In this document: one piece after another, positions 330-23,569 of the stretch
Layout of the letters: the number at the start of each line of letters is the position of its first letter
Position numbering within the stretch: position 1 is the first letter of the stretch
Program-made: the position numbers and the translations under genes
Assembly: GCA_950073835.1 (NCBI GenBank)
Contig: CATMRP010000016.1
Span: forward strand, 1-50,543
Source of the DNA: an uncultured Alteromonadaceae bacterium
Lineage (GTDB): Bacteria; Pseudomonadota; Gammaproteobacteria; Enterobacterales; Alteromonadaceae
Length of the DNA stretch: 50,543 nt
Direction: 5' to 3'
The notes under the pieces: model-generated
Told to the model about the DNA's origin: nothing
Databases searched by the model: none
What the model saw: the letters and a program-made list of their open reading frames with translations, nothing else

Positions 330-343
330 AATCACTCCAGAAG

Positions 344-364: not shown

Positions 365-380
365 GTATCGCTAGCAAAGT

Positions 381-2661: not shown

Positions 2662-2769
2662 AAACAGTAATGCTAAGAATGCGCTCCATTGGTTTTTTTC
2701 GCCACGGAAAAGTTCCCGAAATCAGTTGGGAATATTCCCTGGAAACGAAGTATGAGAGAGGATAAACAT

Positions 2770-3318
2770 ATGAAGTCTATTTACGGGGTAACACTGTCAC
2801 TTCTTGCGGTTTCGGGTTTGGCAATTGCTGCTGATGACAACGCGGATTTGGATGATATCCGCGACTGGCCTATGGTTAAAATGGAAACCTGCCTGGATGC
2901 TGCACTGGACACAATCCCCGGCCATGCCAGAAAGTTAGAGCTCAAAATGGAAGGTGATGACCCGATTTATGAGTTTGATATTGAAGCCAATGCCGATGGC
3001 GAAACCTACAATGTGGAATGCAATGCCGAGGAAGGCTTTATTACAGAAATCGAGCGGGAAGTCAGTAAAGACGATCCCCTATTTAAAAAGTTGGCAAAAA
3101 TCTCTTACGCCGAAGCCGAAGAAACCGCACTGGCCTTTCATCCGGGTAAAGTGGTTAGTTCTGAGCGAGAAATAAGCTTTGAAGGTGATGCAACCTATGA
3201 ATTTGATATTCAATCCATCCACGGTTATGAAGTAAAAGTAGACGTCAATGCCGCAACCGGTGAGATTGAAGAAGCCAATATCGAACTCTACGAAATTGGT
3301 GTGGAAAAAGAAAAGTAG
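2770..3318 (+). CDS. Secreted PepSY-domain protein
   Basis: A 182-residue protein starts at the ATG at 2770, preceded by GAGAGAGG at about 8 bases; a longer frame upstream has no such site. Residues 1-20 (MKSIYGVTLSLLAVSGLAIA) are a signal peptide. The mature part is very acidic and appears to hold two PepSY-like units, around residues 45-105 and 110-178. Each shows the pattern of a strand ending YEFDI followed by VDVNAATGEIEEAN. PepSY modules are small periplasmic domains, often proposed to bind or inhibit partners; the ligand is unknown. The gene is divergent from exaA and is followed by its own terminator, so it is probably monocistronic. Confidence 0.8.
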   Translation: MKSIYGVTLSLLAVSGLAIAADDNADLDDIRDWPMVKMETCLDAALDTIPGHARKLELKMEGDDPIYEFDIEANADGETYNVECNAEEGFITEIEREVSKDDPLFKKLAKISYAEAEETALAFHPGKVVSSEREISFEGDATYEFDIQSIHGYEVKVDVNAATGEIEEANIELYEIGVEKEK

Positions 3319-3332
3319 TGACAAATTGATAG

Positions 3333-4517: not shown

Positions 4518-4540
4518 GTTATGTTATACTATATCATTTG
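4518..4540 (+). promoter_or_regulatory. Zur box upstream of siderophore-type receptor
   Basis: The core TGTTATACTATATCA (4522-4536) agrees with the gammaproteobacterial Zur consensus TGTTATANTATAACA at 13 of 14 fixed positions, and the flanks (TTA and TTTGC) also fit. It lies about 35 bases before the receptor start codon, a position where Zur would block transcription when zinc is sufficient. Binding is inferred from sequence only. Confidence 0.75.
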
Positions 4541-6709: not shown

Positions 6710-6764
6710 AATAATGGGGTCAGAGTACATTATCCTAAAGGTAATGTACTCTGACCCCATTATT
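6710..6764. repeat. Palindromic REP-like repeat with a degenerate neighbour
   Basis: A perfect 23-bp inverted repeat (6710-6732 and 6742-6764) surrounds a 9-base loop. Each arm contains AATAATGGGGTCAGAGTAC or its complement. Broken copies of the same motif continue at 6766-6775 and 6789-6806 (CTCTGACCCCATGATTCC). The same motif flanks the RAYT transposase at 32425. The repeat sits between convergent genes, where it can act as a two-way terminator. Confidence 0.9.
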
Positions 6765-7437: not shown

Positions 7438-7460
7438 AAAATGTTATAACATCACATTTC
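7438..7460 (+). promoter_or_regulatory. Zur box upstream of znuD
   Basis: The core TGTTATAACATCACA (7442-7456) matches the Zur consensus TGTTATANTATAACA at 12 of 14 fixed positions and is close to the site I recall from the E. coli znu promoter, including the flanking AAA and TTTC. It lies about 30 bases before the znuD start. Confidence 0.78.
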
Positions 7461-7484: not shown

Positions 7485-9908
7485 GTGAAATTAAACAAAT
7501 TGGCAATCGTGATGACCATGCTGCTGCCTGGTATCTCGCAGGCTGCTGAGATAAACGGTCAAGCGCTTAACCAAAATGGCCAGCCGCTGGCCAAAGCTGA
7601 AATAGAAATCGAATCGCTGAATGTGTCGGTGACCGCCGATGACAACGGCTATTTTTCACTTCCTTCAGTCAATGCTTGCGAGTATGTGCTGCATATTCAT
7701 GCTCCGGGGTATGCCCACCTGCATGAAACCATAGAAGTTTCTGATAACAGCAGTGAACAGTTGGCATTTCGTCTTGAGCGCTCACCTATTGAAGTCATCG
7801 ATGTGATAGCAGCGCCTATGCACATGTCGATTATGGAGTCGGCGTCGCCAGTAAATGTACTGGGGGGTGAAACACTGCGCCGTCAACAAGCCGCAACCCT
7901 TGGAGATACATTGGAAAAACTGCCGGGTGTGCAGTCTAATTTTCACGGCAATGTGGCCAGTACCCCCATCATTCGTGGTTTGAGCGGTCCTCGAGTGTTG
8001 ATTGCGCAAAATGGCCTGGATGTTAGTGACGTATCCCGTGTCGGACCAGATCACTCTGTCGCATCTGAGGCGTCAACCTCGCAACAGATTGAAGTATTAC
8101 GCGGCCCCGCAACCTTATTTTATGGCAGTGGCGCGATTGGTGGTGTAGTCAATGTTGTCGACGGTCGTGTCCCTTCAGACAATGACACTCGTGGCGAGTG
8201 GTTACTGGAAACCGACTCTGTTAATAATCAAAAACTGGGTTCATTCAATATTACTACTGGTGCTGGCGACCTGGGTGTCTATGCCGATGGTTACTGGCGT
8301 GAGTCGGATGACTACGATACGCCGGTAGCACCTGATGTGGATGAGCCGGATGCTGCACGTAGCGTCGAAAATAGTGCAGAAGAGTCAAATGGCTTTACCG
8401 TGGGGGCAAGTTACCTGTTGGATGACGGTTATGTTGGCATTGCGGTTGAACAGTTTAACCGTGAGTACGGCATACCTGGCCACACGCATGGTCATGAAGA
8501 ATCCTCGGATGATGAGCATGACCACGAGCACACGGAGGCTGAAGAAGAGCAGGTGTTTGCCGACCTGGAGCAAACCAAAGTTCAGTTGTTAGGTGAGTTA
8601 TCCGTTAACAGTAATTGGTTAAGCAGTATTAGTTTTAGAGCCGGTTACACCGACTATGAGCATGCTGAGATAGAAGAAGGTGTAGTAGGTACGCTTTTTG
8701 AAAATACCACCAGTGAAGTACGAATTGAATTAATGCATACGCCACTGGCTGACTGGCAGGGCGGTTTGAGTCTGCACTACAAAAAAAGTGAAGTGGCAGC
8801 TCAGGGCGAAGAAGCCTTTACGCCACCATCTGATGCAGAAATGGTAGCGCTGGCTTTAATGGAAGAGCGCCACTTCGGCGACTTTCTGGTACAACTTGGA
8901 GCGCGAGTTGAACGGGTTACACTTGATGCTCCAGAAGTCTTATTGCCCCAGTTGTCTGCTCATGATCACGATGAAGCGGCAGAGGACGTTCATGACCACG
9001 ATCATGATCATGAGGCCGAATCTTCTGTTACACGAGTATTTAACGTAGCTCAGGAGTTTACGCCGGTTTCTCTTTCCGCTGGCGTGGTGTGGGACTTTAC
9101 CCCTGGCTATAACGCTGCCATATCGGTTTCCCGGGCACAACGGGCTCCTTCAGCATCGGAGTTACTCTCGTTTGGACCACACATCGGGACCTCAACCTAT
9201 GAAGTCGGTGCACTGTTCGCCCTATCAGGTAACGAAGACAGTGCGCTGAGTTTATCGTCCTCAGCTATTGACCTTGAAACCTCCAATAATATTGATCTGA
9301 CCTTGCGTAAAATCAGTGGTGATGTGGGGTTTGTATTTAATGCTTTCTATAACCAGGTTGACAATTACTATTATCAGGTCAACACCGGTTTATTTGCTGA
9401 AAGTGGTCATGATCATGGCGACGAGGAAGAGAGTGAAGAGCACGATCACAGCGATGAGCTTCCAGTTTACCTGTTCCGTGCTGCTGACGCTATTCTGCAT
9501 GGTTTTGAAGCTCAGGTTGCCTGGCAGGTGACAGATGAATTTAAAGCCCAGTTTTTTTCTGATTATGTGCGCGCCAGATTAAAGGACGGCGGTGATTTAC
9601 CTCGTACACCACCACTGCGTGTTGGTACGCAACTAAGCTATCAAACCGAATCATTGAGCGCGCATCTCGATATCACCCACTATGCAAAACAGGATCGCAT
9701 TGACGCATCAGAGACAGTAACTGATGGCTATACGTTAGTCGATGCCTTTGTCGCGTACGATTTTAATGTAATGAGTCAGGATATGTCGGTGTATCTCAAA
9801 GGAACAAACCTGACCGATGAAGAAGCTCGCGTTCACACCTCTTTTCTTAAAGATATCGCACCGCGCCCGGGGCGCAGTGTTGGTGTAGGTCTGCGTGGCT
9901 ATTTCTAA
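7485..9908 (+). CDS. znuD: TonB-dependent zinc receptor ZnuD
   Basis: An 807-residue outer-membrane receptor for zinc. It starts at a GTG (7485) followed by a signal peptide ending ISQAA; no in-frame ATG would keep that peptide. Residues about 21-100 form a carboxypeptidase-regulatory-like domain. The plug (about 110-225) includes PIIRGLSGPRVLIAQNGL and EVLRGPATLFYGSGAIGG, and the barrel ends in GLRGYF. Three histidine/acid-rich loops, near residues 328-355 (HTHGHEESSDDEHDHEH), 490-512 (HDHDHDHEAE) and 639-659 (GHDHGDEEESEEHDH), are the hallmark of ZnuD zinc capture loops. It is the first gene of an operon running through DUF1826 and has a Zur box in front. Confidence 0.95.
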   Translation: MKLNKLAIVMTMLLPGISQAAEINGQALNQNGQPLAKAEIEIESLNVSVTADDNGYFSLPSVNACEYVLHIHAPGYAHLHETIEVSDNSSEQLAFRLERSPIEVIDVIAAPMHMSIMESASPVNVLGGETLRRQQAATLGDTLEKLPGVQSNFHGNVASTPIIRGLSGPRVLIAQNGLDVSDVSRVGPDHSVASEASTSQQIEVLRGPATLFYGSGAIGGVVNVVDGRVPSDNDTRGEWLLETDSVNNQKLGSFNITTGAGDLGVYADGYWRESDDYDTPVAPDVDEPDAARSVENSAEESNGFTVGASYLLDDGYVGIAVEQFNREYGIPGHTHGHEESSDDEHDHEHTEAEEEQVFADLEQTKVQLLGELSVNSNWLSSISFRAGYTDYEHAEIEEGVVGTLFENTTSEVRIELMHTPLADWQGGLSLHYKKSEVAAQGEEAFTPPSDAEMVALALMEERHFGDFLVQLGARVERVTLDAPEVLLPQLSAHDHDEAAEDVHDHDHDHEAESSVTRVFNVAQEFTPVSLSAGVVWDFTPGYNAAISVSRAQRAPSASELLSFGPHIGTSTYEVGALFALSGNEDSALSLSSSAIDLETSNNIDLTLRKISGDVGFVFNAFYNQVDNYYYQVNTGLFAESGHDHGDEEESEEHDHSDELPVYLFRAADAILHGFEAQVAWQVTDEFKAQFFSDYVRARLKDGGDLPRTPPLRVGTQLSYQTESLSAHLDITHYAKQDRIDASETVTDGYTLVDAFVAYDFNVMSQDMSVYLKGTNLTDEEARVHTSFLKDIAPRPGRSVGVGLRGYF

Positions 9909-9945
9909 GACATTGGGTATTAAAAAATAAAGGAACGAATTAACT

Positions 9946-11316
9946 ATGAACACTCAAACTAAACTTACCTTTTTAGCCGCTGCCATTAGCTCGGTGTTAC
10001 TCACCGGCTGTGGTGATGCAGAAACCACGATTGTCGAATTACCGCCCATTGAGGAAGAGCACGATCATGACGAGGGTGAAGAGCACAATCACGATGAGTA
10101 CGAAATTGATAGTGCCGGTCGCTTATCGGTAACCGATGCCGATTCAAACGCGCTGGCGATCTTCGATTTAGACGATAACAGCTTGTTGGATACGTTTAGT
10201 CTTACTCACTCGGGCAGCGCTTTAACGCATTCTGCTGATTATCGTTTTGCTGTGGTGACCAGTCGCGCCAATGATCTGGTGGAGTTTATTGATGGCGGGC
10301 TGTGGCGCGAAGATCATGTCGAGCATTTACACGATTACGAAGAAGCGCCGGCGTATTCAGATTTTACCCTCGCAGGCAGCCGGCCTACCCATGTCGACGG
10401 GCATGACAGCCAGCTTGCAGTGTTTTATGACGGCGATGCCGACAGCGGTATACCGGCTTCTGTACAAGTGGTTACCGACACAGACATTGCCGCAGAAACT
10501 GCAGAAGTGAATACGCTTACCTTCAACGTGAATATGCATGGTGTGGCCAAGCCGGTGGATGACATGTTAATCGCCTCGGTGCGCCGGGATGACAGTGAAA
10601 CCACATCAGCCAATCCCATATTGCCTGATAGTGTCGGGATCTATCACCGCCACGACGGTGACTACGAACAGGAGCAATTATTTGCCGGCGAATGCCCGGA
10701 CTTGCACGGCGCCGCATTAAATGACGAACACGTGGTGTTTGGCTGTAGCGACGGTGTACTGGTACTACACGCCCATGATGAAGAGTATGAGTCACTCAAG
10801 GTCGATAACATCGATGAGCTGAATGGCATGCGCATTGGCACTGTGTACGCGCACCATGATGTTGAAACCTTTATCGGTATTGCGTCACAACACGGTGGTG
10901 GCAGTGCAGTGTTAACGGCTATCGACCCTGAACTCGGTGAAATGGAAGCCATCGACTGGGAGCCTGAAACCAATGCGCACCCGGTGTCTTATGGTTTTTC
11001 TTTCGATGGTGAACACTTTCTGATCCTCGATGATTTGGGCTATCTGTCGGTCTTGTCGGCTCACGAGCACGACGACCACGCGCACTGGGAATTAGAAGAA
11101 CGTCTGGATATTTCAGATGCAGATTTGTCTTTAATGCCTGAAGGTGGGGCCTTCTCCATGACCATCGCGCAAAATGCTGCGGAGGTATACGTGGCAGACC
11201 CCATTGCTCAACACGTACTGGTTATCGACTTAGAAAGCGGTGAAACCACTGGTGATATTGAGCTCGATTTTGTGCCGTCTGCGGTTACCTGGCTGGGTAT
11301 TGCAGAAGCTCACTAA
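9946..11316 (+). CDS. AztD-like periplasmic zinc metallochaperone lipoprotein
   Basis: A 456-residue protein with a lipobox (LLTGC, Cys22), so a lipoprotein. Just after the anchor is a His/Asp/Glu cluster (EEEHDHDEGEEHNHDEYE, about residues 36-53). The remainder looks like a beta-propeller of repeated strands, with further histidine pairs such as HDGDYEQEQ, HAHDEEYE, AHHDVE and HEHDDHAHW. AztD proteins are propeller zinc chaperones that pass zinc to the solute-binding protein of AztABC; no AztABC gene is in this window, so the partner here may be the nearby DUF2796/DUF3299 proteins. The operon position directly after znuD supports zinc transfer from the receptor. The AztD assignment is from overall pattern, not alignment. 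Confidence 0.75.
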   Translation: MNTQTKLTFLAAAISSVLLTGCGDAETTIVELPPIEEEHDHDEGEEHNHDEYEIDSAGRLSVTDADSNALAIFDLDDNSLLDTFSLTHSGSALTHSADYRFAVVTSRANDLVEFIDGGLWREDHVEHLHDYEEAPAYSDFTLAGSRPTHVDGHDSQLAVFYDGDADSGIPASVQVVTDTDIAAETAEVNTLTFNVNMHGVAKPVDDMLIASVRRDDSETTSANPILPDSVGIYHRHDGDYEQEQLFAGECPDLHGAALNDEHVVFGCSDGVLVLHAHDEEYESLKVDNIDELNGMRIGTVYAHHDVETFIGIASQHGGGSAVLTAIDPELGEMEAIDWEPETNAHPVSYGFSFDGEHFLILDDLGYLSVLSAHEHDDHAHWELEERLDISDADLSLMPEGGAFSMTIAQNAAEVYVADPIAQHVLVIDLESGETTGDIELDFVPSAVTWLGIAEAH

Positions 11317-11326
11317 TCTTACAGGT

Positions 11327-11356
11327 GTCCTCGCCCGGGAGTTTTCGGGTGAGGAC
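11327..11356 (+). promoter_or_regulatory. Intra-operon hairpin
   Basis: An 11-bp stem, GTCCTCGCCCG with CGGGTGAGGAC and one G-T pair, encloses an 8-base loop in the gap between the AztD-like and DUF2796 genes. No T-run follows. It may partly attenuate transcription or mark an RNA processing site. Confidence 0.5.
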
Positions 11357-11383
11357 AAAGCACATCACAGGAGGACACCACAG

Positions 11384-11941
11384 ATGAGAGCAAGTAATAC
11401 ACAGCCTCGAAGTTTGACAGTCTGCGTTCTGACGGCGTTTTATCTGACCTTTAGCCAATCTGCTTTGGGAGCCGGACAGGCCCATGTCCACGGCCATGGT
11501 AAATTGCTGATTGCCCAGGAAGGGACTCACTGGCAGCTGGAGTTTACGCTGCCGGCGGCTGATATGGTGGGGTTTGAGCATGCCGCCCATAACGAGCGGG
11601 ACAAAGAACACCTGCGCCACATTGCCGAAAGATTAGCTTCCCCTGCCAATGTGTTTACCACCAGAGGCGGCGATTGTCAGATAGCTGAGAAGGAGGTGAA
11701 TCTACCGGGAGCCGGTCACCACGAAGGTGAGCATGAGCACGAAGCTCACACAGAGCACAAGGCATCTCACGCCGATGTCAGGTTACATTATCAGTTGCAA
11801 TGCATTGGCGACCTGCAAAGCCTGACGCTCCGATTGTTTGATATGGCGCCTTCGCTAGGCGAGATAGAGGCGCAGTGGATTGTGAATGCAGGTCAGGGGC
11901 AAACCGAGCTCTCCCCATCAAAACGAGAATTGGTCTGGTAG
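11384..11941 (+). CDS. Periplasmic DUF2796 zinc-binding protein (ZrgA-like)
   Basis: A 185-residue protein that starts at the ATG at 11384, preceded by AGGAGG; a longer frame upstream overlaps the previous gene and lacks such a site. A signal peptide (to about residue 29) is followed by AHVHGHGKLLIAQEG, the typical N-terminal motif of DUF2796, and by a mid-protein histidine stretch (GHHEGEHEHEAHTEHKASHADV, about 112-133). In Vibrio cholerae a DUF2796 protein, ZrgA, is part of a Zur-controlled zinc importer; here the gene lies 11 bases before zur. It probably captures zinc in the periplasm and hands it to the DUF3299/ABC machinery encoded 3-7 kb away. Confidence 0.85.
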   Translation: MRASNTQPRSLTVCVLTAFYLTFSQSALGAGQAHVHGHGKLLIAQEGTHWQLEFTLPAADMVGFEHAAHNERDKEHLRHIAERLASPANVFTTRGGDCQIAEKEVNLPGAGHHEGEHEHEAHTEHKASHADVRLHYQLQCIGDLQSLTLRLFDMAPSLGEIEAQWIVNAGQGQTELSPSKRELVW

Positions 11942-11952
11942 GCAGGGTAAAT

Positions 11953-12423
11953 ATGGCGCTCCCGCAAACATGCCAAAAGCAGGACGATGATAATACGTTA
12001 AATGGATTAACGCCCAAACGCAAAGAGGTACTGAGCGTATTAACCGCAGCCGACAGGCCGTTATCTGCCTATGAAATCGTGGATTTATACAATCAAACTG
12101 CTCACAAACCCATACATGCCATGTCGGTGTACCGGATACTGGACTTTCTTAAGTCGGTTGATCTGGTAACGCATCTGCACTCGGTGAATAAGTTTTTAGC
12201 TCGGGGGCAGGCTGCAGGGCGAAACGACAACTCAGTATGTCTATATGTAACCTGCCAACAATGCTGTGGAGTACAAAAACTGGTGCTTGAACGCGGCGAA
12301 GCGGCAACGATCCAAAATCATATACACCGGCTGGGCTATCAGTTATCCAGCCACTCGATAGAAATTCCCGGGCTGTGCGAAAACTGTAGTCCGAATTCCG
12401 ATACAACTATTAAGGAGTCCTGA
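11953..12423 (+). CDS. zur: Zinc uptake regulator Zur (Fur family)
   Basis: A 156-residue Fur-family repressor. The ATG at 11953 follows AGGG by 5 bases; an upstream GTG in frame would overlap the preceding gene. The winged helix covers about residues 18-85 (TPKRKEVLSVL ... MSVYRILDFL). The dimerisation half carries two CxxC pairs, Cys101/Cys104 and Cys142/Cys145, which match the structural zinc site of E. coli Zur almost by number, plus the histidine-rich HIHRLGY segment. With zinc bound it should repress the three Zur-box promoters in this window, including that of its own operon, giving autoregulation. Confidence 0.93.
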   Translation: MALPQTCQKQDDDNTLNGLTPKRKEVLSVLTAADRPLSAYEIVDLYNQTAHKPIHAMSVYRILDFLKSVDLVTHLHSVNKFLARGQAAGRNDNSVCLYVTCQQCCGVQKLVLERGEAATIQNHIHRLGYQLSSHSIEIPGLCENCSPNSDTTIKES

Positions 12424-12424
12424 C

Positions 12425-12832
12425 GTGGGACGAACTCAAACCCTCGGGGATAGACTGGCCATTGCGCTGTCATCGCTTTGCGTGATTCATTGCCTTGCAA
12501 CGCCTTTGCTATTAATTATCCTGCCATCATTTGGCGCACTGTTTGCCGACAGTCACGAGCTGTTTCATCAGATTATCCTGTTTTTCGTGCTTCCTGTGGG
12601 GCTGGCGGCGCTGGCTGCAGGTTATCGCCACCACCACAAAAACAGCGTACTGGGCAGCGGATTAACAGGCCTGGCTATTCTCTTTCTCACCGCGCTGTAT
12701 GGCCACGATTACCTCGGCGAATTCGGTGAAACCGGTGCCACCATTCTGGCCTCATTAGTTATCGCTTACGCCCATTTACGCAACTATCAGTTAAGTCAGA
12801 AAATGCAAAAGACAAGCAGAGAAATGGTATGA
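12425..12832 (+). CDS. MerC-family inner-membrane protein
   Basis: A 135-residue membrane protein with four hydrophobic segments. The first contains CVIHC (Cys19 and Cys23), the metal-binding spot used by MerC mercury transporters. Chromosomal MerC-like proteins inside Zur operons are thought to move zinc rather than mercury; no other mer gene is present. It starts at a GTG 7 bases after AAGGAG and overlaps neither zur (1-base gap) nor, except for the ATGA junction, zigA. A short HHHK cytoplasmic or periplasmic loop lies at about residues 60-63. Transport direction is unknown. Confidence 0.82.
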   Translation: MGRTQTLGDRLAIALSSLCVIHCLATPLLLIILPSFGALFADSHELFHQIILFFVLPVGLAALAAGYRHHHKNSVLGSGLTGLAILFLTALYGHDYLGEFGETGATILASLVIAYAHLRNYQLSQKMQKTSREMV

Positions 12833-14031
12833 ACAATCTAAAACGTTTACCGGTAACGGTGCTCTCAGGCTTTCTGGGCGCCGGTAAAACCACCGTACTG
12901 AGCCATATCCTTAACAACCGCGACGGACTGCGCGTAGCGGTGATCGTTAATGATATGAGTGAAATCAATATCGATGCGGCGGTGCTTAAAAACGAGGTGA
13001 GTTTAAACCGCAGCGAAGAAAAACTGGTGGAAATGAGCAATGGCTGTATTTGCTGTACGTTACGGGAAGATTTGTTAATCGAGGTACGCGAGCTGGCTAA
13101 CAGCGGCAGGTTTGATTACCTGGTAATTGAATCCACTGGCATCTCCGAGCCCTTGCCCGTAGCCGAAACCTTTACCTTTGAGGATGAAGACGGCGTCACC
13201 CTGGCCGATGTTGCCCAGCTCGATACCATGGTAACCGTGGTTGATGCAGTGAATTTCTCTAACGACTTCGAGGAAGCGAAATACCTGCAGGAAGCCGGCG
13301 AGTCACTGGGGGAAGACGATGAGCGAAGCGTTGCCGATTTGCTGATTGATCAGGTGGAGTTTGCCGATGTCATACTGATCAGCAAAACCGATTTGGTGGA
13401 TGAAGCAGCCATTACCCGGCTGAAGGCCATTTTAACCACGCTCAATACCCGGGCCCGAATCATTCCTATTTCACAGGGGAATATTGATGTGAAAGAGGTA
13501 TTGGGGACCGGCTTGTTCGATTTTGAGCAAGCGCAACTGGCACCGGGCTGGCTAAAGGAAATGCGCGGCGAGCATATTCCGGAAACCGAGGAATACGGGA
13601 TCAGCAGCTTTACCTATACCGCCAGGCGGCCTTTTTATCCCCAGCGGTTTTATGATTTTCTGCATAACGAGCGCGGCTACGGCAAGCTGCTTCGTTCCAA
13701 AGGCTATTTCTGGCTGGCCAGCCGACCATTTTATGCCGGTCAGTGGAGCCAGGCTGGCGGCATTGCCCGTTATGGCTATGGGGGGATGTTCTGGAAAGCG
13801 GTAGATCCTAAAGACTGGCCCGAAGACGAAGAGTACCGCCAATCCATAATGGAACAGTGGCAGGAGCCTTTTGGCGATATGCGTCAGGAACTGGTGTTCA
13901 TTGGTCAGGATCTTAATGAACAAGCTATTCGTGAAGCGCTGGACAGCTGTTTGCTAGACGATGAAATGCTGGTAGCAGGGCGCGCTGGCTGGCAGCTATT
14001 ACCCGACCCGTTTCCAGCCTGGGAGGCCTGA
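12829..14031 (+). CDS. zigA: COG0523 zinc metallochaperone GTPase, ZigA type
   Basis: A 400-residue G3E GTPase. GFLGAGKT (Walker A, about residues 12-19), NGCICC (zinc-binding CxCC, about 68-73), ESTGISEP and SKTD are all in place, followed by a CobW C-terminal domain (YTARRPFYPQRFYDFL onward). It shares length and C-terminal W-rich features (GYFWLASRP, GGMFWKAV) with the ZigA/YciC group made during zinc starvation, and differs from the shorter YeiR at 3427. The start overlaps the MerC-like gene by 4 bases, implying translational coupling. It should use GTP hydrolysis to pass scarce zinc to chosen enzymes in the cytoplasm. Confidence 0.93.
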   Translation: MNNLKRLPVTVLSGFLGAGKTTVLSHILNNRDGLRVAVIVNDMSEINIDAAVLKNEVSLNRSEEKLVEMSNGCICCTLREDLLIEVRELANSGRFDYLVIESTGISEPLPVAETFTFEDEDGVTLADVAQLDTMVTVVDAVNFSNDFEEAKYLQEAGESLGEDDERSVADLLIDQVEFADVILISKTDLVDEAAITRLKAILTTLNTRARIIPISQGNIDVKEVLGTGLFDFEQAQLAPGWLKEMRGEHIPETEEYGISSFTYTARRPFYPQRFYDFLHNERGYGKLLRSKGYFWLASRPFYAGQWSQAGGIARYGYGGMFWKAVDPKDWPEDEEYRQSIMEQWQEPFGDMRQELVFIGQDLNEQAIREALDSCLLDDEMLVAGRAGWQLLPDPFPAWEA

Positions 14032-14033
14032 GC

Positions 14034-14678
14034 ATGAGTACTGCATTTTCCTTTAGTCGTGATATTGATGTGGCAATGCCGCAGCAAGCGTTTGGTGGTC
14101 AGGCCGATGTACTGGCCGATATTTATGAGCCGCAGGTCAACATGGCAGTGTGGCAAAGACCACTGGCAAAATTTGTGCAACGAGCGGTAGAGCAGGGTAT
14201 AAACGCCGGGCTTACGCTTAATGTCACAGAAGAAGTGCCGGTTAATGAAGCACCAGAAATACTGCAGGCGAATTATTCACTCAGCCAGTGGCAACCAGCG
14301 TTAAGTGAAGACGTGGCGGCGCTGGTGGATATGTTTGGTTGTTTGTTCGACACTGAGTTAGTAGGCCTGCGTTTGCGAATACTTAACAGTGCCATGTGCC
14401 CGAAGTTTCATTTCGATCGGGTGCCTTGCCGCCTGGTGATGACCTATAACGGTAGCGGTACGCAGTGGCTACCTAACCAGTGTATTGTCATTAAGGATGG
14501 TCGGCTGATTTGTGATGTTGATGATCACAGCAAACAAATCCGTACCTTGCAGGAAGGAGAGGTTGCGCTACTGAAAGGCTCAATGTGGACAGGCAATGAA
14601 CACACGCCGCTGGTACATCGCTCGCGGCAGGTAGAGAGCAGCCAGCCACGGCTCTTGCTCACGCTGGATGCGATGTGA
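14034..14678 (+). CDS. DUF1826 protein of the zinc operon
   Basis: A 214-residue cytoplasmic protein without signal peptide or membrane segment. The block MCPKFHFDRVPCRLVMTYNGSGTQWL (about residues 121-146) is the DUF1826 core, with conserved Cys and His that could hold a metal; HTPLVHRSR near the C-terminus is also typical. Genes of this family are regularly found right after COG0523 GTPases in Zur operons, as here (3-base gap), which suggests it is a client or helper of ZigA. Its chemistry is not known. The cupin-like or 2-oxoglutarate-dioxygenase-like flavour of the HxD motif (HFD) is a guess. It ends 4 bases before a REP palindrome. Confidence 0.88.
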   Translation: MSTAFSFSRDIDVAMPQQAFGGQADVLADIYEPQVNMAVWQRPLAKFVQRAVEQGINAGLTLNVTEEVPVNEAPEILQANYSLSQWQPALSEDVAALVDMFGCLFDTELVGLRLRILNSAMCPKFHFDRVPCRLVMTYNGSGTQWLPNQCIVIKDGRLICDVDDHSKQIRTLQEGEVALLKGSMWTGNEHTPLVHRSRQVESSQPRLLLTLDAM

Positions 14679-14682
14679 AATA

Positions 14683-14744
14683 ACAAATAATGGGGTCAGA
14701 GTACATTAATAAATCTATTAATGTACTCTGACCCCATTATTTGT
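14683..14744. repeat. 29-bp palindromic REP repeat between convergent operons
   Basis: Arms 14683-14711 and 14716-14744 are perfect complements around a 4-base loop (AATC). Each contains the AATAATGGGGTCAGAGTAC motif. The stop codon of the minus-strand DUF3299 gene (14737-14739) lies inside the right arm. The long stem, with T-rich ends on both strands, can terminate both convergent operons. Confidence 0.92.
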
Positions 14745-15420
14745 ATTGTTGGTGGTTTCTGAGGTCGTCGGGCTGGCCGTTAAAGCGGCTGATGGTGACC
14801 GCATTCATCACGTAGGCTGCAGTGCCTAACGGATCCTCATACATGGCGTTGCCCAGGATGCCGGAAACCGAATAGGCACTATTAATATCGGCCATCTTAA
14901 AGCCTCCCTTACTCACTACATAGACCATTTGATTGGGCGCCGGCGGTGGAAAGTGCAGGCAGGCACCGAAATAGGGCACCAGGAAAAAGCGCAGCACTTT
15001 ACGTTCACTATCAGCTTCCAGCGGCACTATAAAGCCGTTAATTGTTACTGCATTACCATCCAAAGTCGCTACATGCGCTGTAGACCGCATGGTGCTTTGG
15101 TAGGCTCTGTCCTGCGAGGCTACCAAAGCAGTTAAGAATTGCTCTTCCATGGGGACGGTAGGAATTGTCTGATATTTTTTGAGTAGCCGTCGTTCTTCTG
15201 GTGGTAGTAAATCTGCCCAACCCAAGGGACTAAACTGAGTAGATGTAAGGTGTTTGAGTAACTTAGCATCGGTTGTAGTGTAAAGTGACTGACGTTCTGC
15301 CGCACCCAAAATACCCTTGAATGGCTGGTTATCTGCATAAAATAACCGTCCGGTGAGCCCGCCAGTAAGCCCCGCTACAACAATGATTACAACATATGCA
15401 ACAACGGGGAGTCGCTTCAT
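14737..15420 (-). CDS. DUF3299 protein, membrane-anchored (Zrg-type)
   Basis: A 227-residue protein with an N-terminal signal anchor (VVAYVVIIVVAGLTGGLTG). The DUF3299 signature occupies about residues 127-165: INGFIVPLEADSERKVLRFF followed by LVPYFGACLHFPPPAPNQMVYV, whose Cys and His may bind metal. It is the last gene of a three-gene operon reading away from the Zur box at 16513 and overlaps the preceding gene by 4 bases. DUF3299 proteins accompany DUF2796 and an FtsX-type ABC pair in Zur regulons and are likely periplasmic components of that zinc importer. Its last codons and stop come from the REP repeat, so the original C-terminus may have been altered by insertion. Confidence 0.85.
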   Translation of the reverse strand: MKRLPVVAYVVIIVVAGLTGGLTGRLFYADNQPFKGILGAAERQSLYTTTDAKLLKHLTSTQFSPLGWADLLPPEERRLLKKYQTIPTVPMEEQFLTALVASQDRAYQSTMRSTAHVATLDGNAVTINGFIVPLEADSERKVLRFFLVPYFGACLHFPPPAPNQMVYVVSKGGFKMADINSAYSVSGILGNAMYEDPLGTAAYVMNAVTISRFNGQPDDLRNHQQYK

Positions 15421-15869
15421 CCAGCCTCGACTATCAGGGTACGGGTAGTGCTAAACACCGCGCCTTCATTAATAGCATTAAGTGTTATGGTTATTTCGTG
15501 AGTGCCGGGTCGGGATGGCGTAAAGGCTAGATCGTAATTGTCCGATACTGCGCTGAGTTTGAAATCCTGTGCTGACAATAACTCGATATCATCACTGGAA
15601 CTGACCGTCAGGCTCACGTTGCAATAACTTAGTGGCACTGATATGCCCACATTTTGTGTGCTTTGCGTTCCCACTTTGACCACAGCCCTTCTGGCCAGTG
15701 TAACGTTTGGGTAGTTTTCCCTTTGATTCATCATGGCTTCATAGCGGTTATTGTTATGATAAGCCGCAAAAGCACCGAAACCATTACCATGCATCTGACA
15801 AGCTGAAGCCATAAACGCACTGGCGGACAGAGCGCTGAAAACGGTACACACAAGGAGTGATTTTTTCAT
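15417..15869 (-). CDS. Unknown small secreted protein between two DUF3299 genes
   Basis: A 150-residue protein I do not recognise. It has a signal peptide (to about residue 22) and then a short segment with possible ligands, CQMHGNGFGAFAAYHNNN. The remainder is rich in beta strands and ends with a pattern like an immunoglobulin fold (FTPSRPGTHEITITLNAIN). It is 6 bases after the upstream DUF3299 gene and overlaps the next by 4 bases, so it is co-translated with them under the Zur box. A periplasmic zinc-binding accessory of the importer is the simplest reading, but this is inference from position and the CxMH motif only. Confidence 0.75.
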   Translation of the reverse strand: MKKSLLVCTVFSALSASAFMASACQMHGNGFGAFAAYHNNNRYEAMMNQRENYPNVTLARRAVVKVGTQSTQNVGISVPLSYCNVSLTVSSSDDIELLSAQDFKLSAVSDNYDLAFTPSRPGTHEITITLNAINEGAVFSTTRTLIVEAG

Positions 15870-15875
15870 AGTGAT

Positions 15876-16484
15876 TTACTCGTAAAGTTGGTAGTTGTCG
15901 ATATGCAGGGTGTAGGCAGAGGTGCCGATATCACGCTCACTTATCTCAATTTCGAGCTTACCTTCAAACCAGAAAGGCTGTTGCAGGTGTTGTAATTCAA
16001 TCCCGTCACTAAAATTAACAAACAGAATTTGATTTGGCGGCGGGGGCGGCATGTGCAGGCAGGCGCCAAAATACGGGACAATAAAAAACGACGTGACTCT
16101 GCGCTCTTCATTTTGCGCCAATGGTACGATGTAACCTGGAATTCTGATGGCTTGCTGATCAAATTCAGCGATGGGTTGAGTTGAGCTTAACGCTTCTCGA
16201 TACCGCTTAGCTTTCTGATCGGTAATTTCACGCTGATTAAGTGCCGAGACGGAGTCTTGTTGTGAACCATCTTCGATGCCATTGAGAAAATCCGGTGGGT
16301 CAAGCAAGGCTGCCAGATCCTCTTTCGGCATCAATTCTGTCCATTCTACTTCCCGGTACTGAACCGCTTCACTTTGGGCTGGTGCAAGCAAGATTATTAT
16401 TGCCACCAATAGCAATCGCGCTCTGACATTCTGCAGGCGAAATTGATTGTAAAGCCTGGTAACGGCAAGGCAGGCTGCTGTCAT
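15876..16484 (-). CDS. DUF3299 protein, first gene of Zur-boxed operon
   Basis: A 202-residue protein with a hydrophobic export segment at about residues 22-40 (ARLLLVAIIILLAPAQSEA). Early on it has VEWTELMPKEDLAALLDPP, and the DUF3299 core is at about 112-150: IPGYIVPLAQNEERRVTSFF followed by IVPYFGACLHMPPPPPNQILFV. The core is nearly the same as in the second copy at 14737, so the two are paralogues that may form a heterodimer. The start codon is 30-odd bases from a Zur box shared with the divergent ABC operon. No strong ribosome site is seen before the ATG, so the exact start is less certain. Confidence 0.86.
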   Translation of the reverse strand: MTAACLAVTRLYNQFRLQNVRARLLLVAIIILLAPAQSEAVQYREVEWTELMPKEDLAALLDPPDFLNGIEDGSQQDSVSALNQREITDQKAKRYREALSSTQPIAEFDQQAIRIPGYIVPLAQNEERRVTSFFIVPYFGACLHMPPPPPNQILFVNFSDGIELQHLQQPFWFEGKLEIEISERDIGTSAYTLHIDNYQLYE

Positions 16485-16512
16485 AGGTAAAACTGTCCAA
16501 TTTATAGTTTGT

Positions 16513-16535
16513 TTTGGTTATGTTATAACATTTTT
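16513..16535 (-). promoter_or_regulatory. Zur box in the divergent zinc-importer promoter
   Basis: Read on the minus strand, TGTTATAACATAACC (16516-16530) matches the Zur consensus at 12 of 14 fixed positions with AAA in front. The central ATGTTATAACAT is a 12-bp palindrome identical to that in the znuD site. It lies about 35 bases from the DUF3299 start and about 115 bases from the ABC ATPase start, so one site may control both directions. Confidence 0.72.
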
Positions 16536-16646
16536 TTTCCAGTGTAAGGGTCTCCTCGATTCTTTGTCGCTAAGTCAGGATGAGTGACCGTTTCAATTCA
16601 TTCGCGAAGGGTATAATCTGGACGCAACAACAAGGTGTAGTGAAAA

Positions 16647-17348
16647 TTGACATTGCCAGAAACAAAACCAGTGCAGGCGATTAGCCTTAACAATGTGACC
16701 TATCAGTATCCCAAAAGTGACTCCCGACTGAGCTTTCCTCACTGGCAGGTAGCTCAGGGAGAGCGCCTGTTTTTATATGGGCCCTCAGGCTCAGGAAAAA
16801 CCACTTTGCTTAATTTACTGGCCGGTATCCTTACCCCGGATACCGGCACCGTTACGCTGCTGGAAAAGCCGTTTTCAACCCTGAGTGAGGGCAAGCGTGA
16901 TAAATTCAGGGCCCGCCATATTGGGGTGGTTTTTCAGCAGTTTAACCTGGTGAGTCATTTAACCGTGGCGCAGAACATTACCCTGGCTGCGCATTTTGCC
17001 GGCGCCAGTCAGCCGGGCCGGGAGCAACTTGCCGCGCTGATCCACGCATTGCAGTTGCCATCAGAGGTGTTAAACCAACAGGCCAGTCAGTTAAGCGTTG
17101 GGCAGCAACAGCGTGTGGCGATTGCCCGGGCATTGATCAATCAACCGGAAATCCTGTTGGTGGATGAACCCACTTCGGCGCTGGATGCCGACGCGCGGGA
17201 TGCGTTTATGCGGCTGTTAACCGAGTTGTGCGAGCAACATCACACCACTTTGATTTTTGTTAGCCATGACCAGAGCCTTAGTCAGTATCTGGATAAAAGT
17301 GTGGCTATCAGTGCACTTACCGCAACTGCGGAGGCTTCATCGTGTTAA
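16647..17348 (+). CDS. ABC transporter ATPase, LolD/MacB-like, zinc island
   Basis: A 233-residue ATPase with complete motifs: Walker A GPSGSGKT (about residues 45-52), Q-loop VVFQQFN, signature LSVGQQQ (the usual LSGGQ changed to LSVGQ), Walker B ILLVDEP and the switch histidine in VSHD. It starts at a TTG 9 bases after AAGGTG; no in-frame ATG is placed better. The next gene encodes its FtsX-like permease and overlaps by 7 bases. LolD/MacB relatives usually extract or export substrates; here the Zur-box context and neighbouring DUF3299 genes point to a zinc role like that reported for Zrg in Vibrio cholerae. Confidence 0.88.
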   Translation: MTLPETKPVQAISLNNVTYQYPKSDSRLSFPHWQVAQGERLFLYGPSGSGKTTLLNLLAGILTPDTGTVTLLEKPFSTLSEGKRDKFRARHIGVVFQQFNLVSHLTVAQNITLAAHFAGASQPGREQLAALIHALQLPSEVLNQQASQLSVGQQQRVAIARALINQPEILLVDEPTSALDADARDAFMRLLTELCEQHHTTLIFVSHDQSLSQYLDKSVAISALTATAEASSC

Positions 17349-18577
17349 TGACCTTTGCCCTAAGTAGTTTACGTAGTCGTGGTAAATCACTGGCTCTAAC
17401 CCTTTTGTCGCTGCTGATCAGCATAAGTGTATTGTTAAGTGTTGAACACGTGAGGTTACAGGCCCAGGAGAGTTTTAACCGAACGGTTTCGGATGTTGAC
17501 CTCATCGTCGGCGCGCCAAGTGGTCAGTTAAATCTGATGCTCTACACGGTATTTCGGATGGGGAGCCCAACCAATAACATCAGATATGCCAGCTATGATA
17601 TGTTGCAACAACATCCGCAGGTAAACTGGGCTATCCCGATTTCTTTAGGTGATGCTCATCACGGCTATCGCGTGCTCGGAACTAACCAGCAGTATTTTGA
17701 CCACTATAAGTTTGGTAACAAGCAGCCGTTAGTGTTTAGCCAGGGTGAGCCCTTTAAAGGGGTTTTTGGTGCGGTGCTGGGCGCCGATGTGGCCAGTTCG
17801 CTTAATTATCAGTTGGGTGATGACATAGTGATTGCTCACGGACTTGGCGCGGTGAGCTTTCAGAATCATGACGACTCACCTTTTACCATTACCGGTATCC
17901 TGGCTCCCACCGGTACGCCGGTGGATAAAACCGTGCATGTTTCATTGCAGGGTATTGAGGCTATGCATTTGCCGCATGCGCAGCTTGATAGCGTATTACA
18001 TCAGCCGGATAACGTAGCTAACCCTGCGGTGCAACCCGACAGCGTTACCGCAGTGATGGTTGGCCTCACCAGTAAGTTCGCCACTTTTACCCTGCAAAGA
18101 GAACTAAACAACTTCGAAAATGACCGTCTGATGGCTATTTTGCCGGGGGTCGCATTAACTGAGATGTGGCAGATGATGGCAGGTGTGGAAAACTTGTTGC
18201 GCTTTATTAGTCTGCTGATCATGCTGTCATCGTTATTCGGTTTATCCACCATGTTACTGGCTTCAATGCAGCAGCGAGAAAAGGAAATAGCAGTGTTGCG
18301 AATTATTGGTGCCGGAGCGGGAACGATATTTCGTTTAATTTTAACAGAAGCCCTGCTGCTTACGGGTGCTGCAAGTATTATCGCGGTGGTTTTGGTCTCT
18401 GCTTCTTTTGCGTTAGCCAAAGGATGGTTAGCCAGCCATTACGGCCTGTTTATATCGGCCAATCTGTTAACCCTGCACACCGCCATGGTGATTGGTGCGA
18501 TACTGCTGGCGACGCTGATTTGCAGTTTACTGCCTGCTATTGATGCCTATCGTGGCGCCATAAACCAACGACTGTAA
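17342..18577 (+). CDS. FtsX-like ABC permease, zinc island
   Basis: A 411-residue permease with the MacB/LolC layout: one membrane helix at about residues 14-33, a large extracytoplasmic domain (about 35-280), then three helices at the C-terminus (about 285-310, 330-355 and 372-398). The cytoplasmic QQREKEIAVLRIIGAGAGTIF between helices 2 and 3 is the FtsX signature. The periplasmic domain contains a histidine-rich HHGY and many DxD pairs but no obvious zinc cluster. The GTG at 17342 is preferred since GGAGG lies 7 bases before it. With the ATPase it should form a dimeric transporter or a mechanotransmission machine working on the DUF3299 proteins. Confidence 0.87.
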   Translation: MLMTFALSSLRSRGKSLALTLLSLLISISVLLSVEHVRLQAQESFNRTVSDVDLIVGAPSGQLNLMLYTVFRMGSPTNNIRYASYDMLQQHPQVNWAIPISLGDAHHGYRVLGTNQQYFDHYKFGNKQPLVFSQGEPFKGVFGAVLGADVASSLNYQLGDDIVIAHGLGAVSFQNHDDSPFTITGILAPTGTPVDKTVHVSLQGIEAMHLPHAQLDSVLHQPDNVANPAVQPDSVTAVMVGLTSKFATFTLQRELNNFENDRLMAILPGVALTEMWQMMAGVENLLRFISLLIMLSSLFGLSTMLLASMQQREKEIAVLRIIGAGAGTIFRLILTEALLLTGAASIIAVVLVSASFALAKGWLASHYGLFISANLLTLHTAMVIGAILLATLICSLLPAIDAYRGAINQRL

Positions 18578-18589
18578 GTGACACAAGTA

Positions 18590-19588
18590 ATGAGCAAGAA
18601 GTACAAACAATTAGTGAATTTGTGGTTTGGCTTTATATGCAGCACTGGTGTAAGCACACTGGTGCATGCTGAGGACACACCACAGGGATCCGCAATACCC
18701 CGGCAGGTAGTGGCGCTACTGGCAGCCAACCAACTCGTTGCACTGGGAGATATCCACGGCTCTGAACGGCCGGTTAACATGTTAATTTCGCTTCTCGAAA
18801 CCTCTGAGGTTGCACAGCAAATTGACGACATAGTGGTAGAGTTTGGTAATTCACAGTATCAGCGGATGGCAGATGAATATATTCTCAATGGCAGAAATAT
18901 TGCTATTTCCGAGCGCCAGAAAATATGGCGCAATACGCTTTATTTTATGGCTTGGCAAACGCTGCAATATGCACGCCTGATGACTTACTTACATGAATAT
19001 AATCAACAACATCAGAAAAAAATCCGCCTTGTGTTAGCCGAGCCCGCGTTCAATTGGCAGCTTATAACAAGTGAGCAGTGGCAGCAGCTAGCCAGCAACC
19101 GCGAAGCCGACTATGTGACGCGAATCGAACAACAAGTACTCGAAAAGAATCGCAAAGGGATATTGCTGTTTGGCACCTTTCATCAAATAAAAAAGCCGGT
19201 AGCACTGGCGCCACAACAGCGTGAATTTACCTCCCTGGTGGCTCGACTGGCTGCCAAAGGCATTCAGATCGCAACAATATGGCCGCATATGGGGCCGGCG
19301 CTCACTCAGGACTATCGCGTGCCGACACTTATAGATTTACAGAGCGATCCCATGGGTAAGCAGCCTATCGATCAACTGTCAGCGCGCTTTACCAGCCAGT
19401 TACCGTTTCATACTATTGCCGACTATTATCTGTATTCAGGTGCGGAATCCCGCGAAGCCCAGCCTGCAGAGAATAATATCGATGATCTTGCATGGCGCGC
19501 TGAAATGAAACGTCGCGGTGATATGCTTGGTGGCAGAGTGCAATCACAGGTTAATGCGTGGCTGGCGGCCCACCCGGTGAGCCGTTAA
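18590..19588 (+). CDS. Secreted ChaN/EreA-superfamily-like protein
   Basis: A protein of 332 residues (336 if a GTG at 18578 is used) with a signal peptide ending near VHA. LVALGDIHGSERPVNMLISLL near the mature N-terminus, IVVEFGNSQYQ in the middle and GILLFGTFHQIKK later recall the conserved Gly-Glu/Asp-x-His and terminal His motifs of the ChaN, EreA and TraB metal-dependent superfamily. The conserved Asp-His, Glu and His could bind a metal. It directly follows the permease in what looks like one operon, so it is probably also derepressed when zinc is scarce. The actual reaction is unknown and the family label is tentative. Confidence 0.6.
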   Translation: MSKKYKQLVNLWFGFICSTGVSTLVHAEDTPQGSAIPRQVVALLAANQLVALGDIHGSERPVNMLISLLETSEVAQQIDDIVVEFGNSQYQRMADEYILNGRNIAISERQKIWRNTLYFMAWQTLQYARLMTYLHEYNQQHQKKIRLVLAEPAFNWQLITSEQWQQLASNREADYVTRIEQQVLEKNRKGILLFGTFHQIKKPVALAPQQREFTSLVARLAAKGIQIATIWPHMGPALTQDYRVPTLIDLQSDPMGKQPIDQLSARFTSQLPFHTIADYYLYSGAESREAQPAENNIDDLAWRAEMKRRGDMLGGRVQSQVNAWLAAHPVSR

Positions 19589-19621
19589 CCTAATCTTGTC
19601 GAGTTCTCAATCAGCAATGGC

Positions 19622-20530
19622 TTAGCGATTTAAACACTGCCCGTTATTCGACCTGTCTGGAAAGACAGTGTTGATGGTTGCCATTAATCTGGCGTAATCG
19701 CTGGCCATCCGCTCCGCCTGCACCTCTGTTAGTACCTGCCCCTGCAACTTTATGCGCTCGGCTTCTACATGGGTGTAGTGAAAAATCCGCATATCGGTGT
19801 TGTGCTGCTGCCAGGCGTTATCCATGTTTTCAATGTTGGTATGTGAGTCGTCAACAAACACGATGGCGTTGAACTGGCGTTCGGTGGTGTTTAAGAGCCA
19901 CTTAAGCATGGTGCCCTTGTTCATTCCTGTGGTCATCATCAGGCCGCGACTGTAGCTCATTTCACGCTCAAGTTTTTGCCGGTAAACCGGGTTAGCGTTA
20001 TCAACCGGCGTCAGTGCTGCCTGACTAATATCTATGCCATGGCGTAACAGTTCGCGCTCCGTTGCCGGACGATTTTTCGGCGCGCGGGAAGTGAGTAACA
20101 GCAGGGTATTACCGGCCTCCTGCCAGTTGTTGAGTAGCACAGGAACCTGAGGTTCGGTGAGCTTCATTGGCGCCAGTTCGTAGAGCAGGCTGATAGTGTC
20201 TTCAAACAAGCAACTCACCTGTTGTTCCGGCGTTGGCTTAACAGCCAGTTTGCCGCGCTGCCACTGATACCAGATATCGCCACCCAGATCGGTAGCGCTG
20301 GTTAGCAGGGTATTATCAATATCGGCAACAATAAGTACGTTTTCGGCACCGTACTGGCTATTGAGCTTTGCAACAACCGGTGCAATCACATCGAAGGTGT
20401 CTGCTTCGGCAACGATGACCTCACTGTCGATGGTTGATGGAGTGCCGCTACAGCCGCTGGCAGCCAGTACCAGTGCGAAAAACAGCGAGCGAAGTGCAGT
20501 ATTGGAAAGAGAATTTGAAGACATAAGCAT
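19622..20530 (-). CDS. HAD-like DUF2608 lipoprotein
   Basis: A 302-residue protein with a lipobox (LAASGC, Cys27), so a membrane-anchored lipoprotein. VADIDNTLL is a HAD motif I (DxDxT), LLLLTSRAPKNR carries the motif II threonine/serine, and IVFVDDSHTNIENM is the acidic motif IV. Together these make a HAD phosphatase-like fold of the DUF2608 type. A phosphatase acting on the periplasmic side is plausible; the substrate is unknown. It converges on the ChaN-like gene with a 33-base gap and does not appear to share its regulation. Confidence 0.78.
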   Translation of the reverse strand: MLMSSNSLSNTALRSLFFALVLAASGCSGTPSTIDSEVIVAEADTFDVIAPVVAKLNSQYGAENVLIVADIDNTLLTSATDLGGDIWYQWQRGKLAVKPTPEQQVSCLFEDTISLLYELAPMKLTEPQVPVLLNNWQEAGNTLLLLTSRAPKNRPATERELLRHGIDISQAALTPVDNANPVYRQKLEREMSYSRGLMMTTGMNKGTMLKWLLNTTERQFNAIVFVDDSHTNIENMDNAWQQHNTDMRIFHYTHVEAERIKLQGQVLTEVQAERMASDYARLMATINTVFPDRSNNGQCLNR

Positions 20531-22947: not shown

Positions 22948-23547
22948 ATGCGATTATCACTGGGCACGGCCCGTCAATGGCACTGGATCAGTGCTGCCAT
23001 TTCGCTGGTGGGCATGCTGTTATTCGCCGTTACCGGTATTACGCTTAATCACGCGGCAGTGATCCCTGCATCGATTTCTGTTACCACTATCGAAAGTGAA
23101 GTACCCGCCAGTGTGTTAACGCACCTGCATAATTTACCCATGGCAGAAATGCCTGCGCCGCAACCGGTTCGCCAGTGGCTGGCCAGTGAACACAGCATTA
23201 GTGTGCCGGCCGATGTGGCAGGCGAATTTGATGGTATGGAGTTTTATATAGCCTGGCCGGGACCGGGCGCCGATCGCTGGCTGGCGATTAACGTGGATGA
23301 TGCAGCGCTGTTATATGAAGCTACAGAGCGCGGTTGGATTGCTTACTTTAATGATTTACACAAGGGCCGTAATACCGGCTCGGTGTGGTTTATATTTATC
23401 GATGTGATAGCCATCGCCATGATTGTGTTTACCCTGACCGGGTTATGGTTATTGGTAAAACAGGCCTCTCACAAGCAGTCAACCTGGCCTGTTACCGCGC
23501 TGGGGTTATTGATCCCTGTAGTCATCGCACTGGCTTTTATCCATTGA
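22948..23547 (+). CDS. PepSY-associated transmembrane protein
   Basis: A 199-residue inner-membrane protein. RQWHWISAAISLVGMLLFAVTGITLNHA (about residues 10-37) is the characteristic first helix of PepSY-associated proteins, with the W-H and N-H residues. A periplasmic PepSY-like stretch (about 40-140) includes YFNDLHKGRNTGSVW, and two more helices follow (about 145-170 and 180-199). Proteins of this type work with flavin reductases in iron-siderophore reduction at the inner membrane. The next gene, 22 bases on, encodes such a reductase, so they form a likely two-gene unit under the Fur-like site. Confidence 0.88.
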   Translation: MRLSLGTARQWHWISAAISLVGMLLFAVTGITLNHAAVIPASISVTTIESEVPASVLTHLHNLPMAEMPAPQPVRQWLASEHSISVPADVAGEFDGMEFYIAWPGPGADRWLAINVDDAALLYEATERGWIAYFNDLHKGRNTGSVWFIFIDVIAIAMIVFTLTGLWLLVKQASHKQSTWPVTALGLLIPVVIALAFIH

Positions 23548-23569
23548 TGCCAGCCGGGGAGCCGTTTGC

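Follow-up and report, generated by a model that had tools for sequence, protein, structure and literature searches.

What is an ATP-binding cassette (ABC) transporter with an FtsX-type permease doing among zinc genes, and does it bring zinc into the cell? The question is raised by two divergent operons, zrgE1-Ig-zrgE2 leftward and zrgC-zrgB rightward, with a Zur-like box between them, in the DNA of an uncultured Alteromonadaceae bacterium (assembly GCA_950073835.1, contig CATMRP010000016.1, positions 1 to 50,543; this whole stretch of 50,543 nucleotides is referred to here as the window). An earlier note, made from the letters alone, had described divergent operons for an FtsX-type zinc importer, and all six open reading frames (ORFs) that it named, namely DUF3299, unknown and DUF3299 leftward and ATPase, permease and EreA-like protein rightward, are present where it placed them. 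Judged by its gene families, the locus is a divergent variant of the Zrg system already described in Vibrio and Pseudomonas and not a new type of transporter, and the net job of the system is probably the acquisition of zinc. The permease is indeed of the FtsX type and a part in zinc acquisition is likely, but import as such cannot be read from the DNA.

Kinship with the Zrg system of Vibrio and Pseudomonas

The earlier note had connected the locus with the Zrg system of V. cholerae, and the gene families bear this out. In V. parahaemolyticus the name ZrgE belongs to the DUF3299 protein, ZrgB to the permease, ZrgC to the ATPase and ZrgA to the DUF2796 protein (PMC9817125), and the same assignments apply here. 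In common with ZrgABCDE of V. cholerae and V. parahaemolyticus, the locus unites ZrgA, an ABC ATPase, a MacB-like permease with four transmembrane (4-TM) segments, DUF3299 and Zur control, the last recognised here by the sequence of its box (PMC9820375, PMC9817125). The Vibrio genes, however, form one collinear operon that includes ZrgD (DUF2607), whereas here two operons are arranged on one operator, DUF3299 is doubled, an immunoglobulin-like (Ig-like) protein has been added and zrgA lies in a third operon. It had been pointed out earlier that the DUF2796 gene is in a different operon; this is so, but it is a feature of the variant and not the mark of a different system, zrgA being the genome's sole DUF2796 copy and lying 2.8 kb from the divergent genes. 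Its product scores 151.4 bits with PF10986 (cut-off 27.4) and 101.8 bits with the NCBIfam ZrgA equivalog, which is below the cut-off of 185. ZrgD was not found among the selected window ORFs of at least 135 residues, smaller ORFs being outside the scan, and two Vibrionaceae species are described as lacking ZrgD in PMC9817125.

The same four families make up PA4063-PA4066 of P. aeruginosa, a single operon there as opposed to the divergent operons here, which has been interpreted as a cobalt-pyochelin exporter (PMC11481552). The permease appears to be orthologous to ZrgB and PA4065, since collinear Vibrio and Pseudomonas permeases fall in the same tree, in which the reference proteins themselves are not among the rows. 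Its fold is that of the type VII ABC systems MacB, LolCDE, HrtBA and FtsEX, and unlike in MacB the ATPase and the permease are separate chains. With ZnuABC the system would share a proposed role in Zur-linked ABC zinc uptake, from which it differs in its permease and binding-protein families. The association of an FtsX-type ABC transporter with zinc acquisition, which had been singled out as an oddity, is odd but not new, as a MacB-like ZrgB is already in print (PMC9820375, PMC11481552). The divergent layout, the Ig-like protein and the set of conserved histidines reported below are not described in the excerpts of the Zrg literature found, and may be published elsewhere.

Against NCBIfam, ZrgC matched FtsE, DevA, LolD and other models, none of the 25 matches listed being above its own cut-off. 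The genome's next-best match to the zrgB permease has an E of 1.5e-4, and DUF3299 is represented by the two copies at the locus and a third on contig C48. A profile of 18 DUF3299 proteins searched against the PDB gave 4hsp (E 2.9e-44) as the sole match at E<=0.01, an entry named as PA4066 in PMC8561739; in the alignment of 18 proteins the residues of GAC-x-H...PNQ are invariant, the Cys and His of GAC-x-H included, and zrgE2 has them. The gene for the 150-residue protein overlaps zrgE2 by 4 bases, and its product matched no Pfam family at E<=0.001. Ig-like proteins occur in seven zrg loci (the window, L047, L048, L083, L084, L085 and L087), all seven with a Cys-x2-His motif close to what is presumed to be the mature N terminus, and we propose that they are an optional periplasmic subunit of the Zrg system.

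The Zur-like box between the operons

The box consensus was taken to be ATGTTATANNATAACAT, with 15 fixed positions; a stricter pattern of 23 bases failed to pick up the box at 16515, and the shorter one was used instead. PMC9817125 gives a site of this type from V. parahaemolyticus. The box between the operons, ATGTTATAACATAACCA on the minus strand, agrees with ATGTTATANNATAACAT at 13 of the 15 fixed positions. The Zur-like palindrome noticed earlier is present if imperfect, and its score of 13 was reached in none of 200 shuffles of the stretch that holds the divergent gap (16318-16706). When the window was searched with ATGTTATANNATAACAT at <=2 mismatches, five rows at three places were returned where 0.22 rows would be expected, and none of 100 shuffles reached five. 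Over the whole genome the search returned 13 rows vs 11 in a backwards control, so that the raw count is not above chance; what stands out is that three of the eight distinct places cluster within about 12 kb in the window. The sole place with 0 mismatches lies some 20 bp ahead of another MerC gene. A Zur-like box with 1 mismatch was also seen at L068 (G000:C250), about 180 bp ahead of a DsrE-family ORF.

Conservation of the box across relatives is stronger evidence than its count. In L043-L047, which were taken with larger flanks, the equivalent gap holds ATGTTATAACATAACAT or near forms (13-15 of 15); L079 scores 14, and L081 and L086 score 15 of 15 each. Across the divergent named loci, 49 in number, the best score averaged 11.2 vs 9.6 in shuffles, 19 loci reaching at least 12 and 8 at least 13, while at the corresponding place inside the operon of 13 collinear loci there was no excess (9.15 vs 9.17 in shuffles). 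This test used the first labels of the loci, by which 49 were divergent, 11 were 'alone' (L089, L107, L120, L138 and L148 were later moved) and L124, L147, L151, L153, L156 and L093 stood in the class 'zrgA'. Several divergent loci carry instead, at a similar distance, a palindrome like ATGATACA..GTATCAT, which is only suggestive of an alternative element. From its sequence, the site at 16515-16531 would be expected to bind Zur. A consensus scan of 14600-19700 returned no sigma-70-like site, where shuffles average 6.8.

The permease, its relatives and its neighbours

A structure model of ZrgB, built from the window sequence together with 60 of 79 relatives, has a predicted local distance difference test (pLDDT) score of 83.6 and a 4-TM type VII architecture, with a periplasmic domain at about residues 49-267. 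Its structural matches include 5xu1 (Z 24.9), LolE (21.9), HrtB (18.7) and MacB (18.0), and among the 50 matches listed none was placed outside FtsX/MacB-type permeases or their periplasmic domains, a statement that reaches no further than those 50. Significant matches of the sequence itself to the PDB cover the C-terminal part only. Five histidines and two aspartates of the periplasmic domain are invariant or nearly so: all 99 rows have H166, H176, H209, D104 and D195, while H106 is shared by 96 of them and H199 by 92. The remaining periplasmic histidines are less conserved (H121 in 74, H91 in 41, and H107, H212 and H220 in 3-7). It is reasonable to postulate that the conserved residues form a metal site in the periplasmic domain.

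Since the named loci were taken as the 80 best matches out of 581, the sample leans towards near relatives. Within it the divergent layout is the commonest, found at 50 of the 80 best-matching loci (one of these 50 by a hand-assigned label). The permease tree comprises 99 rows (97 different) and was made by a quick method with Shimodaira-Hasegawa-like approximate likelihood-ratio (SH-aLRT) support only; L140 and L058, which have no full permease ORF, are outside the 99. Twenty collinear rows, six of them labelled by hand, form one clade among the divergent loci (SH-aLRT 99), made up of Vibrionaceae, Pseudomonas, Aeromonas, Hyphomicrobium and others. The distribution of linkage classes is in keeping with the tree (10 changes vs 32.8 in shuffles). 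Rows relabelled by hand (L089, L093, L107, L120, L124, L138, L147, L148, L151, L153 and L156) entered the tree, neighbour and histidine counts under their new labels.

The window's nearest relative is L079, whose permease is 92% identical and whose zrgCB stands alone. L079 has lost the zinc genes to the left, where a gene looks by eye like an insertion-sequence (IS) transposase, but retains two short zrgE1 remnants and the box of 14/15 ahead of zrgC; its lone zrgCB pair consequently looks like the result of loss. Window positions 1-3319 are 99.3% identical to positions 1298-4616 of L079 (UBA2620), whereas on the right side of the zinc cluster identity is about 85%; either the two may have exchanged DNA recently, or one of the contigs may be chimeric. 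Further zrgCB-like pairs with neither zrgA nor zrgE nearby, at L056, L057, L058 and L149, lie behind a conserved small protein of 95-104 residues and adjoin genes that by eye are of chemotaxis type.

Table 1. Features of the zrg locus and of the adjoining zinc genes, with positions in the window
Feature	Position	Strand	Evidence
zrgE2, DUF3299 protein; by eye, with a signal or membrane anchor	14737..15420	-	PF11736 E 9.7e-37
150-residue protein, probably Ig-like and exported	15417..15869	-	Filamin/Ig match E 0.0071, below cut-off
zrgE1, DUF3299 protein, conserved divergent partner	15876..16484	-	PF11736 E 9e-42
Zur-like operator ATGTTATAACATAACCA between divergent operons	16515..16531	-	pattern search, shuffles, conservation
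zrgC, ABC ATPase, TTG start 115 bp past Zur-like box	16647..17348	+	PF00005 (ABC_tran) E 3.5e-35
zrgB, 4-TM FtsX/MacB-type permease	17342..18577	+	PF02687 (FtsX C-terminal) and PF12704 (MacB_PCD)
Weakly EreA/ChaN-like protein, 336 residues, accessory	18578..19588	+	sub-threshold PF05139
zrgA, DUF2796/ZrgA-family, neighbouring operon	11285..11941	+	PF10986 E 2.8e-44
Zur-like box ahead of ZnuD-like gene and zinc genes behind it	7441..7457	+	1 mismatch
Zur-like box ahead of TonB-dependent receptor gene	4521..4537	+	1 mismatch, either strand
Adjoining genes: ZnuD-like receptor, AztD-like, zrgA, Fur-family regulator, MerC, ZigA, DUF1826	7485..14678	+	profile matches

Among the adjoining genes (Table 1), the ZnuD and AztD models matched far under their cut-offs and ZigA above its own (683 vs 600 bits); the Fur-family protein is encoded at 11902-12423. 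Within 6.5 kb of the permease, the 50 divergent loci have ZrgA in 36 cases, a ZigA-type COG0523 GTPase in 21 (the ZigA profile came from a mixed cluster, so that the label means COG0523 GTPase), a Fur-family protein in 16 and MerC in 15. Recurring neighbour clusters with a scanned representative are PRA-CH at 7 loci, an amidohydrolase at 5 and folE2 at 4, and folE2, pyrC2 and hisI2 appear in a table of Zur regulons for a different species (PMC6103462). The window's combination of an E-Ig-E layout with ZrgA-Fur-MerC-(ZigA)-DUF1826 recurs in three other genomes, namely Paraglaciecola polaris LMG 21857 (L083), an uncultured Paraglaciecola (L087) and Alteromonas oceanisediminis (L085), the last without ZigA.

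The ChaN/EreA-like gene that had been counted with the rightward operon does stand in place behind zrgB, but its label is weak and it is not a conserved part of the system. Its product scores 14.1 bits (E 0.038) with PF05139, for which the cut-off is 26.4, and has no match to PF04187, and a single-sequence model was too poor for a structural search (pLDDT 36.8). A search of 295 genomes of the order found relatives in 4, this genome among them; the three remote ones are 22-27% identical, and the two of them that were scanned match PF04187 and PF05139 below cut-off only. Plasmids gave three weak matches and viral contigs none. Given this distribution, and given that in L079 zrgB is directly followed by the next conserved gene with the EreA/ChaN-like gene absent, we rejected it as a part of the Zrg system.

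Two further features of the window may be recorded here. An inverted repeat with arms TGGGGTCAGAGTACATT lies at 14690-14737 and again at 6715-6759, each time between convergent gene ends, and has the appearance of a small palindromic repeat that serves as a terminator. A second CobW-type GTPase with 22 histidines is encoded at 3427-4476 and has a sub-threshold ZrgA match at residues 188-234.

Zinc acquisition and the alternatives

The sequence itself shows the family identities, the box with its conservation, the fold class of ZrgB and the conserved residues; Zur binding, the partners, the direction and the transport step, as set out next, are inferred. Zinc-loaded Zur would close one shared operator, silencing zrgE1-Ig-zrgE2 and zrgC-zrgB together, and in zinc starvation both operons would be made, along with the neighbouring ZnuD-like receptor, the AztD-like protein and ZrgA. 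The receptor would bring zinc into the periplasm, where ZrgA and the DUF3299 proteins would hold it; the periplasmic domain of ZrgB, with its conserved His and Asp residues, would accept either the metal itself or a partner loaded with it, and ZrgC, by using ATP, would drive a conformational stroke by which zinc is moved onward, most simply into the cytoplasm. A role of this kind is consistent with reports that a V. cholerae znuA mutant needs zrgA under zinc limitation, ZrgB there being a 4-TM MacB-like permease with a large periplasmic domain (PMC9820375), and that loss of the P. aeruginosa permease raises the zinc demand of a znuA zrmB mutant (PMC11481552).

The importers carried elsewhere in these genomes bear on the same reading. 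Among 24 genomes drawn from the window's family, the permease is present in 21, of which 9 have ZrgA as well, and absent from 3. ZnuA is missing in 19 of the 21 permease carriers and in 8 of the 9 with permease and ZrgA, and 5 of those 9 are at once without ZnuA, a strong ABC-3 match and an over-cut-off ZIP match. In family f21, strong ABC-3 matches occur in 21 of 21 permease-bearing genomes. Neither an ABC-3 permease nor ZnuA lies at the zrg locus, the genome's own matches sitting on contig C2. There (L064, G000:C2:64000-75000), znuA/znuC/znuB-like genes adjoin genes of PepSY-TM and flavodoxin type, which to the eye resemble paralogues of those at 22948-25045 in the window, and a convincing Zur-like box is missing; these znu-like genes may serve another metal. 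A bolder proposal, which we advance tentatively and at less than even confidence, is that ZrgB would be the first type VII ABC permease to import a metal ion, or to load it for import, through a histidine-lined periplasmic site, and that it takes the place of ZnuABC, as the sole ABC route for zinc, in many genomes of the window's family.

A number of observations weigh against zinc acquisition by this system. Known members of the LolCDE, MacB, HrtBA and FtsEX class extract, export or transmit force. Of the 49 divergent loci, 30 are without a box scoring 12. H106 and D53 fall within the peptide patterns used to retrieve the loci, so that their conservation, being partly by construction, counts for less. 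Pairs of zrgCB with neither zrgA nor zrgE nearby occupy 11 tree rows (5 changes). Nor is the lack of known importers peculiar to Zrg carriers: all three are likewise missing from 7 of the 12 family genomes with permease but no ZrgA, and from 2 of the 3 without permease; other zinc routes must therefore exist. Outside the window's family ZnuA is present in 9 of 13 hand-chosen permease carriers, and this genome itself has the znuA/znuB-like locus on contig C2, whose 11 kb contain one 3-mismatch box match, inside a gene. Last, loss of zrgE or zrgD alone has no effect on growth in V. cholerae (PMC9820375), and a P. aeruginosa permease mutant shows pyochelin-dependent cobalt accumulation, which was read as export (PMC11481552).

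One alternative is that ZrgBC serves zinc acquisition with no metal crossing the membrane through it, performing instead mechanical work in the periplasm in the manner of FtsEX or LolCDE. Zinc might then be loaded or unloaded between ZrgA, the DUF3299 proteins and another importer, or an envelope enzyme might be switched. The type VII fold with its large modelled periplasmic domain, the several genes for periplasmic partners and the retention of the conserved histidines in the lone zrgCB pairs (H166, H176 and H209 in 11 of 11, H106 in 10 and H199 in 9) are all consistent with such a role; the five of nine genomes with permease and ZrgA that show neither ZnuABC nor ZIP would, however, leave the zinc with no such receiver, although other routes may exist. 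On balance we regard this alternative as somewhat unlikely, while noting that it shares its core of zinc acquisition with the preferred explanation, so that our confidence in the two overlaps. True transport by ZrgB and a mechanical hand-off are, taken as such, about equally probable.

Export presents a more distant alternative. PA4064/PA4065 has been called a MacB-type exporter (PMC11481552), and ZrgBC could by analogy expel a metallophore or its metal complex during zinc starvation, as proposed for pyochelin-cobalt in P. aeruginosa. The cobalt accumulation in the permease mutant, taken up again in PMC13083405, would fit this, as would the fold class of ZrgB and the presence of Pseudomonas permeases in its tree. 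The V. cholerae data point instead to zinc acquisition (PMC9820375), and no MacA/HlyD or outer-membrane channel family was matched by at least two of the 83 downstream neighbour ORFs used (from 87) at divergent loci, among the families listed (25 of 129), single matches being possible. We consider an exporter of this kind improbable. That zrgCB encodes a transporter of lipids or lipoproteins, unrelated to the zinc cluster and merely located beside it, is very improbable indeed, and we reject a chance neighbourhood: free-standing pairs do occur, even in the nearest relative, but the remnants and the box at L079 make the lone state look like loss, and linkage tracks the tree.

Zinc acquisition by a divergent Zrg system remains our preferred explanation. 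Published work disagrees on the Zrg system, with zinc import proposed in Vibrio and cobalt-pyochelin export in Pseudomonas, and the fold of ZrgB speaks against an importer of the classical kind. The divergent form in genomes that lack ZnuA, the conserved histidines and the zrgCB pairs with no zrgA nearby offer clean places in which the question of import or export may be put to the test.

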